Made by a program: the position numbers and the translations under genes
Notes under the pieces: model-generated
What the model was told of the DNA's origin: nothing
Seen by the model: only the letters and a program-made list of their open reading frames with translations
Database searches by the model: none
Origin: a virus
Direction: 5' to 3' (one strand)
IMG/VR virus record: IMGVR_UViG_3300009509_000046
Location: 1 to 52,133 of that record
Length of the DNA: 52,133 bases
Part shown: positions 1 through 1,786 of the stretch, piece after piece
Layout of the letters: each line of letters starts with the position of its first letter
Numbering within the stretch: the first letter of the stretch is position 1

Positions 1-369
1 GCATTATCGGACCTTATGCCTGCCCACCTTATAAACGTTATTCGCGTTTTGCAGGGACGTCCGATAAACGGTCCGAAAGTTTCACGTTTTGCCCAAAACC
101 TACTCGGAAATTTATCGGACGTTACGGTCGATGTTTGGATATGTAAAGCTTTCGGTATAGACCATAAAAGCTTGACAAAACGTCTATATGAGCGTATCGA
201 AAAGAAAATACAAAAGCTTGCGAAACAAGCTGGATATCGTCCGGCAGAATATCAAGCTATCATGTGGTATGCCGTCCGGCGGTTGTCCGGCAAAAAGCCG
301 AAAAGCTTTGTTTCGGTATATCGCTCGATATTTTGTGAAACTCCGTGTTTTGAATTTATGAAAGAATAA
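1..369 (+). CDS. Conserved phage hypothetical protein, probably 5'-truncated
   Basis: The frame is open to the left edge; the first ATG inside is at 16 but has no Shine-Dalgarno, so the true start is probably upstream of the window. The visible 117+ residues contain the stretch GPKVSRFAQNLLGN followed by VTVDVWICKAFGI, a pattern (G-KV-F--NL-G, then VTVD-W) that I recall from a widespread phage family of unknown function. A helical YRPAEYQAIMWYAV segment follows. Three copies of the GTCCGATAA repeat lie within it and read as LSD, RPIN and LSD. Family assignment is from memory of the pattern; function is unknown. Confidence 0.6.
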   Translation, partial: ALSDLMPAHLINVIRVLQGRPINGPKVSRFAQNLLGNLSDVTVDVWICKAFGIDHKSLTKRLYERIEKKIQKLAKQAGYRPAEYQAIMWYAVRRLSGKKPKSFVSVYRSIFCETPCFEFMKE

Positions 370-416
370 GTTAAATAAATAACAAACAAGTTTTTTTGGT
401 GTTTGGTGATTTTTCG

Positions 417-445
417 TTTTGCTTTTCTCTTTTATATGTTATACT
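417..445 (+). promoter_or_regulatory. Weak candidate promoter before the small-gene cluster
   Basis: A TATACT hexamer (440-445) lies in an AT-rich 120-bp gap upstream of the genes at 491, 657 and 776. The -35 at 17 bp (TTTTGC, 417-422) is poor. The -10 matches several other promoters in the window, so I list it with low confidence. Confidence 0.35.
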
Positions 446-490
446 ATATATAGAGGAAACGAAAACAGGGACAAAGTTAAGGGGACAAAA

Positions 491-646
491 ATGAACAAGA
501 GAATTTTGACATCAAGCGTAATTATCGTTATCGTTTTTGTTTGGACGTGCATTTTAGGTGTTAAGGCCTGCACGTTTGCAAGCAAAACAGCAAAAGCCGA
601 ACAGGATAGAATAAACGCCGCTTTTTCAATACTACAAGACAGATAG
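491..646 (+). CDS. Small membrane or exported protein, 51 aa
   Basis: Starts at ATG 491 after AAGGGGACAAAA, a strong Shine-Dalgarno. The N-terminus is MNKR followed by a hydrophobic stretch of about 20 residues (roughly residues 8-27, rich in I, V, L), then a short charged tail with KAEQDR. This is either a signal-anchor or a signal peptide. It belongs to a run of three small genes that share the GGGGACAAA leader. No family recognised. Confidence 0.65.
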   Translation: MNKRILTSSVIIVIVFVWTCILGVKACTFASKTAKAEQDRINAAFSILQDR

Positions 647-656
647 GGGACAAATT

Positions 657-767
657 ATGTTAAAAGTTGTGTATCATTCTTTTGAATGGACCGTGCTTGT
701 CGATAATGGATATATGACACTACACGTAAACGAGAATGGAATCGCTACAATGTTAAAAGTTTATTAG
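657..767 (+). CDS. Very small hypothetical protein, 36 aa
   Basis: ATG 657 is preceded by AGGGGACAAATT, the same leader used by the genes at 491 and 776, and the frame runs to TAG at 765-767. The product begins MLKVVYHSFEWTVLVDNGYM and ends in LKVY. It sits tightly between two genes with 9-10 bp gaps, and the shared ribosome binding site is the main reason to call it. Function unknown. Confidence 0.55.
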   Translation: MLKVVYHSFEWTVLVDNGYMTLHVNENGIATMLKVY

Positions 768-775
768 GGGACAAA

Positions 776-1270
776 ATGAATAATGTAGATCACGACAAAA
801 AGCTTTTTACATCGGATTCGTACGGCAATCTGTGTCCTGCGTCCGATAAGACGTATAAAGGATTCAAAATTGATATCGGACTTTCACATGTGAAAGTCTG
901 GGACAAATCCGATAACTTCGTCAGTGAATATCCTGATGAAAAATCGGCCAAACAAGCAATTGACGGTATGACAAAATCAATGCAATGGAAAATAATACAA
1001 ACGTCCGATAACGAAATTGAATGGCAAAAAGACGATTCTGGAATTTATAGTCTGATAACCTGGAATCCGTCCGATAACGTCAGATGCGATTTAATGTCCG
1101 ATAACCACGAGCCGATAGTGACGTTTGTCGGAAAGTCCGATAACGTCCGCAAGGCAATTTGCAAGTTTTGTTCCGATAACCAGATTCACTTATCGGACCA
1201 ACACGCAAGTTATATCGGACGTGAATTGACAAGAGCCGAATTCGAGACAACGTCCTATAACCAGGACTAA
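776..1270 (+). CDS. Hypothetical protein riddled with repeat-encoded SDN tripeptides
   Basis: ATG 776 follows TTAGGGGACAAA. The 164-residue product contains seven forward copies of the GTCCGATAA repeat, all in the frame that reads SDN or SDK, the frame that avoids the stop carried by the repeat. One reverse copy reads LSD. Residues roughly 25-65 and 70-105 look like two related blocks (KGFKIDIG...VKVWDKSDN and MQWKIIQTSDN), perhaps a small beta-rich fold. The C-terminus has no recognisable motif. It may be a real gene colonised by repeats, or an open frame partly produced by them; the leader favours a real gene. Confidence 0.6.
   Translation: MNNVDHDKKLFTSDSYGNLCPASDKTYKGFKIDIGLSHVKVWDKSDNFVSEYPDEKSAKQAIDGMTKSMQWKIIQTSDNEIEWQKDDSGIYSLITWNPSDNVRCDLMSDNHEPIVTFVGKSDNVRKAICKFCSDNQIHLSDQHASYIGRELTRAEFETTSYNQD
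879..898. other. 20-bp perfect palindrome inside the SDN-rich gene
   Basis: Positions 879-898 read GACTTTCACA and then its exact reverse complement TGTGAAAGTC, with no loop. It lies in the coding region, 30 bp downstream of one array motif. It could be a dimeric regulator site or a hairpin; no partner protein is identified. Confidence 0.6.
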
Positions 1271-1786
1271 TCACTTCGTCCGATAACCCGGTCGGACTTT
1301 CATTTCCCAAAGGCCGATAATGTTATGGGCATTATCGGTCCTTCCTTTTGTCCGGCTCCAAACATTATCGGACCTGGACCTCAGCTTAGCATTATCGGAC
1401 CTTCGAGCTGGCCGGAATTTATTATCGGACCCGCCGATTTTGACGTCCGATAACCTACGTCCGATAATTGGCGTTATGTGTCACTCAGTTATCGGACCTG
1501 CTCAAGTCCGATAATATCGACGTCCGATAACCTACGTCCGATAACGTGCTACCAAAACGTCCGATAATATCATGCAATAGATCGCAGAAAAGCCGACCAA
1601 CGTCCGATAATCATTTGCAAAGGGGCCTTTCCCCCAAGACATTATCGGACCGGCCAACGGCCCACCCCCGAAATGTCACTCTGCGGCTGCTTTATAATTT
1701 TAAAAATAGGCCCATCCCCAAAATAATCATCTAACAAATTCAAAAGTTGCATTTTTAAAAAACTGAAAATAAAAAGCAAAATTCCC
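1271..1786. other. Non-coding repeat cluster and AT-rich stretch: candidate origin or binding array
   Basis: No convincing gene is present. 1279-1649 carries 14 exact GTCCGATAA copies in about 370 bp (8 forward, 5 reverse, plus the forward copy at 1279). From about 1690 to 1786 the sequence becomes strongly AT-rich with runs of A and T. Clustered short repeats beside an AT-rich segment resemble iteron-type origins and partition sites, but nothing here proves origin function. Short open frames in this stretch have no ribosome sites and are made largely of repeat sequence. Confidence 0.45.

Follow-up and report, generated by a model that had tools for sequence, protein, structure and literature searches.

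What binds, or otherwise makes use of, a short repeat that crowds one end of a viral genome, on both strands and inside genes as well as between them? The DNA analysed here (the window) corresponds to a complete IMG/VR virus record of 52,133 bases, classed linear. A first-pass annotation had counted 24 copies of the core TCCGATAA at 4–1649, 16 forward and 8 reverse, and the recount was identical. The window carries 26 exact copies in total, against a mean of 1.38 and a maximum of 5 in 100 dinucleotide shuffles, which bears out the claim of an array far above chance; the G reported to precede nearly all copies precedes 22 of the 24 in the array.

A repeat matching the XerC arm of dif

Counted as GTCCNATAA, 23 copies occur in both orientations at positions 1–1700, where 500 shuffles gave a mean of 0.09 and a maximum of 3, and the remaining 50 kb contains just 4; 22 of the 23 are GTCCGATAA and one, at 1252, is GTCCTATAA. 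The irregular spacing described previously holds, the spacers differing from one another, and a simple tandem repeat was rejected for this reason. The copies are both intergenic and coding, as had been stated: ten of the 23 lie inside ORFs 16–369 and 776–1270 and the others outside these two, and the coding frames do dodge the internal TAA, TCC GAT AAn being read as SDN or SDK and TTA TCG GAC as LSD. The record begins within a DUF7178 gene, whose 3' part (1–369, + strand) is weakly DNA-glycosylase-like and contains three copies, and the 164-aa ORF at 776–1270 (+ strand), which contains seven, is kept beside the arrays of related phages (fam 130; group B1 below). By eye, a GGGGCCTTTCCCCC-type element (1620–1635, + strand) has the same place in other B1 arrays, and a Sigma70-like promoter, TTGACC-N17-TATACT (1787–1815, + strand), comes after an A/T-rich stretch, similar promoter-like sequences also coming after other B1 arrays. 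Window 1–1700 has no blastn match in the phage or plasmid collections.

Bacteria use the dif site to separate joined chromosomes, and there is strong support for GTCCGATAA being its XerC arm (nnGTCCNATAA, 11 bp), which makes up half of the site. Published proteobacterial dif sites include ACGTCCGATAATATGGATTATGGTAACT for Anaeromyxobacter and AGGTCCGATAACATGCGTTATGTAAACT for Myxococcus, as well as the arms GTCCCATAA or GTCCTATAA for Geobacter, Desulfovibrio and Syntrophus (PMC2731167). The repeat is identified as the XerC arm because these published arms have the same sequence and the same free position (PMC2731167). Indeed, the window arm ACGTCCGATAA is the dif arm of Anaeromyxobacter and recurs as such in many planctomycete sites. 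Among the one-mismatch variants found in dense regions (written TTATCGGAC), positions 2 and 7 are nearly fixed, position 4 changes to C only and position 6 to A only, and position 5 is the most variable, in a tally that counts near-identical phages twice (regions L259 and L054+L057). The loci with at least eight copies range in GC content from 0.33 to 0.64, so base composition is no explanation for the motif.

In bacterial genomes, where the dif sites discussed here are sites predicted from sequence matches, GTCCNATAA-N6-TTATGT is present in 127 of 294 Planctomycetota genomes (5–6 of 294 for the reversed control), as well as in nine from a diverse set of 50. Its copy number in Planctomycetota is nearly always one; a few genomes have two copies, and the outliers carry 5 in one case and 17 in the other. 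These two outliers (G380 and G353) harbour inverted pairs of dif-like sites about 220–250 bp apart (for example G380:C7:13621-13888), with 17 sites in one genome and five in the other, which are possibly small Xer-using mobile elements. The commonest XerD arm among the 38 Planctomycetota sites listed is TTATGTTGCnT, and most planctomycete dif sites listed share the AC that precedes 69 of the 145 half-sites of B1 arrays. An earlier genome-wide dif prediction by Kono et al. failed for Planctomycetes (PMC3025954), and the sequence found here is a candidate dif for this phylum. The dif arm that array phages carry is a possible link to their hosts; Planctomycetota are only suggested as the host, other phyla sharing the arm, and relatives of the window terminase in Planctomycetota are rare and distant.

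Several other identities were considered. DnaA-like boxes, suggested by the TTATn 9-mer, were rejected as the Bac_DnaA_C domain (PF08299) is absent from the 26 array records, and a Sigma28 –10 element (GCCGATAA) was considered improbable given copies in both orientations and inside genes with no conserved –35 seen. A DNA uptake signal or genome-wide host repeat does not fit a dif that is nearly always single, nor the finding of no array (three 9-mers with free spacers) in 392 Planctomycetota genomes, the one phylum covered by this search. The motif is likewise not equally common through host and phage, a possibility that the first-pass annotation had raised, either in the window or in the bacterial genomes searched. 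Consequently, the analogies proposed at that stage (iterons, uptake signals, packaging signals and small mobile repeats) are mostly unsupported, and Xer/dif was missing from them. The ends of IS21 or Mu-type transposons were prompted by tandem TGTCCGATA in Bacillus, and the published IS21 text contained no matching end. These TGTCCGATA runs, observed in Bacillus and Ureibacillus (L230, L207, L212, L132), are intergenic, with variable spacers and a period of about 20–21, and are found at numerous loci of two Bacillus genomes; the dif of B. subtilis is without this arm.

A dif-like core among ordered half-sites

One whole dif-like site sits among the 22 further predicted XerC half-sites of the window phage (1457–1484, + strand). 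It consists of the XerC arm ACGTCCGATAA (1457–1467), the centre TTGGCG (1468–1473) and the XerD-like arm TTATGTGTCAC (1474–1484). Upstream, a half-site made of AC plus GTCCGATAA (1443–1453, + strand) lies 5 bp from the core arm, a position kept in B1 phages; downstream, an inverted half-site (1489–1497, – strand), also at a conserved position, lies 4 bp past the 11-bp XerD-like arm and precedes three direct half-sites (1506–1544, + strand), whose spacers of 7 and 5 bp are conserved in B1 phages. The core is flanked by ordered half-sites as sites of the cer/psi type are by accessory sequences that impose direction, a role that the half-sites may share.

When 976 half-sites were scanned, TTATGT followed at offset 6 in eight records, one site each, which count as seven distinct phages because L022 and G003 are one contig. 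It was found six times at offset 20, and another six times across the remaining offsets between 0 and 29 combined; from our reading of the spacing, the offset-20 cases would mostly be the same core sites counted from the upstream half-site. The ordered half-sites around the core are common to six of the seven phages, with departures in G009 and L115. Another scan gave two further cores inside arrays (L409 and L412), so that an XerC arm, a 6-bp centre and an arm starting TTATG(T) are found in the window, six other phages, L409 and L412. The phage XerD-like arms resemble planctomycete arms, with C at position 9 in seven of nine, and the second arm of L409, TTATGTTGCAT, is identical to that of the dif sites L376 and L399. 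The earlier prediction of a repeat-binding protein, encoded by phage or host, appears well supported by the XerC-arm match, the free position and the whole dif-like site.

The core could be an attP that recombines with the host dif, as in a temperate phage of the IMEX type, the array setting the direction of the reaction. Some phages do enter dif via XerCD (PMC4246890, PMC7062461), and B1 phages have a core with both arms without any tyrosine recombinase match. However, the phage centres (TTGGCG, TCCCTG, GACAGG, GACCAG, TCGGGG and GGGATA) match none of the host dif centres listed, and the 392 Planctomycetota genomes contain no triple array, although the true host may lie elsewhere. Furthermore, B1 phages resemble YuA-like phages, which have their own DNA polymerase and helicases. 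The differing centres and the lack of arrays in these genomes favour recombination between phage copies over integration into dif, which we consider improbable.

Alternatively, the half-sites could be iterons of an origin, or stoperator-like operators, bound by a phage protein, the likeness to dif being accidental. Their iteron-like spacing, the adjoining A/T-rich stretch and promoter, and the single dominant orientation in a 170-kb phage lineage (see below) are consistent with such a role, as is a cumulative GC skew that climbs steadily from just past the array, in a window where all large genes also run one way. Against this, the 26 array phages encode no Bac_DnaA_C domain, and the families common to the lineages, most of them without annotation, include no obvious binder. 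Moreover, the resemblance to dif in arm sequence, free position, 6-bp centre and TTATGT would have to be coincidental in every respect. We regard an origin or repressor locus as distinctly improbable.

Arrays in unrelated phage lineages

The triple 9-mer pattern with free spacers was found in 63 viral-contig stretches, against 3 for a shuffled 9-mer; such counts are descriptive, as kinship makes phages non-independent. Where records were examined, the copies mostly cluster in a single region, between a few hundred bases and some 6 kb long; many of the viral records probably represent incomplete genomes, and a number of arrays are found at the ends of contigs. L255 (G037) 5–199, which closes off a 140-kb virus record, consists of regular 23-bp tandem repeats with the 9-mer, arrays elsewhere being irregular. 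Far from being absent in all close relatives, an outcome that the first-pass annotation had named as refuting, the motif recurs in both related and unrelated phages, and no described phage system with this exact motif, of which that annotation knew none, was found in the open-access literature. The same literature yielded no account of phage arrays of XerC half-sites.

By protein comparison and by family searches, the array phages fall into at least three unrelated groups. Group B1 (the window, G001, G009, G020 and G028) is YuA-like: the terminase, DNA polymerase I and Pam3_Gp34-like protein of the window are nearest to those of YuA-like siphoviruses, with 41–54% identity. YuA itself lacks an array built on the XerC arm of its host. 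The arrays of B1 phages and of G042 contain or adjoin DUF7178 genes (window 1–369; L317 12472–13275), whose actinophage relatives carry the annotation DNA glycosylase. Half-sites occupy partly different alignment columns in DUF7178 orthologues, or are absent, and therefore seem to have been gained within a conserved gene.

Group A, a lineage of about 170 kb (up to 180 kb) with a siphovirus-type tape measure, includes G006, G014, G019, G033, G036, G038, G043, G044 and G048, and also G013 and G016, which were placed there by their recombinases only. One half-site orientation dominates its arrays; by eye, overlap with start codons is frequent for TTATGGGAC, and with stop codons for TTATAGGAC. Some 400 bp upstream of an orthologous gene, G006, G014/G038, G036, G043 and G044 carry dif-like sites whose centres differ; finding them required relaxed arms, and those of G014/G038 and G044 were read by eye. 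One array gene of this lineage has no homologue in the phage collection. Two other ORFs were observed: L344 6957–8483 is an IMP dehydrogenase ORF with an additional match to an HNH endonuclease model, and L339 617–2071 (G044) matches both HNH endonuclease and Mom-like DNA modification families.

The search for tyrosine recombinases gave matches in seven of the 26 array records, all of at least 70 kb and with one gene each, and none in B1 or B2. The five recombinases examined (293–297 aa) match the XerC/XerD models over their full length with 208–236 bits, below the equivalog cut-offs of 330–335 bits, and a comparison of one of them with solved structures gave E. coli XerD as the top match. The protein of the 170-kb phages (for example L360 1183–2076) can thus be assigned, on its sequence, to the Xer recombinase family, short of the criterion for XerC or XerD proper. 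Without a recombinase, B1 and B2 phages would depend on host XerC and XerD.

Group B2 (G026, G030, G032 and G040) has a T7-type terminase and primase-helicase, and its half-site arrays lie near the terminase gene. A CTGCCTTTTTC element is also seen among the half-sites of three distinct T7-like arrays (L293, L316 and the near-identical pair L356/L290). No core was found in the B2 arrays searched, nor in the other array loci checked (L049, L255, L275, L117, L262, L266 and L019). Half-sites near the terminase gene without a core, in phages without a recombinase, keep alive the main rival reading, in which the array is a decoy that soaks up host XerC and blocks either the resolution of chromosome dimers or mobile elements and satellites that use Xer, any core being secondary. 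Such a sponge would offer tens of sites per genome and many genomes per cell. The multiplication of the XerC arm alone and the accumulation of copies inside genes at differing positions point the same way, as do the elements with paired dif-like sites of G380 and G353. However, a sponge needs neither the base-pair spacing shared around a single core in B1 nor, in the 170-kb lineage, a conserved core position, an Xer-family gene of its own and one dominant orientation, and we regard a decoy as unlikely.

Possible roles of the arrays and comparison with known systems

The reading that we prefer, with about as much confidence as reserve, is that of an Xer recombination locus in which an array of XerC half-sites serves to load recombinase, probably for genome circularisation or the resolution of phage multimers, in a host with a planctomycete-type dif. 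Host XerC and XerD would bind the core, the recombinase of the 170-kb lineage probably being its phage-encoded Xer-family protein. The half-sites would act as accessory sites that load and arrange more recombinase, mainly XerC, and would make the pairing of two phage copies efficient and topologically correct. Recombination between the copies would then circularise the genome after entry and resolve dimers or concatemers. Cre-lox of P1 and the cer and psi sites of plasmids, which serve circularisation or multimer resolution, offer an analogy for such a locus. To our knowledge, neither cer, psi nor dif has arrays of tens of half-sites spread over kilobases or inside genes, which counts against an Xer recombination locus, as do the B2 arrays in which no core was found, the relaxed arms needed for the cores of the 170-kb lineage and the lack of such an array in YuA.

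More broadly, we lean towards the statement that XerC half-site arrays in at least three unrelated lineages capture the host or phage Xer recombinase, whether for genome resolution or as an XerC trap, and we are similarly inclined to consider capture arrays of tens of XerC half-sites as a type of locus without earlier description. A repeat of uncultured phages would thereby be tied to a near-universal system of chromosome maintenance, and we found no report of tailed phages exploiting or blocking Xer recombination on the scale that this suggests.

Several known systems share some of these features. The short-repeat regions of T7, which adjoin its terminal repeat, and the stoperators of mycobacteriophage L5 are also made of many copies of a short motif, and B2 copies too are near the terminase gene; however, these motifs are unrelated and are not Xer half-sites. 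Like loxP-Cre of P1, the arrays involve a phage-borne site proposed for circularising and monomer upkeep, and the 170-kb lineage also encodes a tyrosine recombinase, but the recombinase family and the site differ and loxP has no half-site array. The cer and psi sites likewise have an Xer core beside accessory DNA that would impose direction; their accessory proteins are ArgR and PepA, whereas the putative accessory DNA of the phages consists of XerC arms themselves. IMEX phages such as CTXphi and VGJphi (PMC2731167, PMC4246890) carry a dif-like site and rely on host XerCD, but these phages are small and filamentous, whereas array phages have centres unlike the listed dif centres and no integrated array in the 392 genomes. 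The closest likeness is to chromosomal dif/XerCD (PMC2731167; PMC3025954), with its identical XerC arm, 6-bp centre and XerD arm starting TTATGT; whereas that site is solitary and present nearly always once per genome, the phage arrays repeat the XerC arm at least 20 times and have a less conserved second arm.
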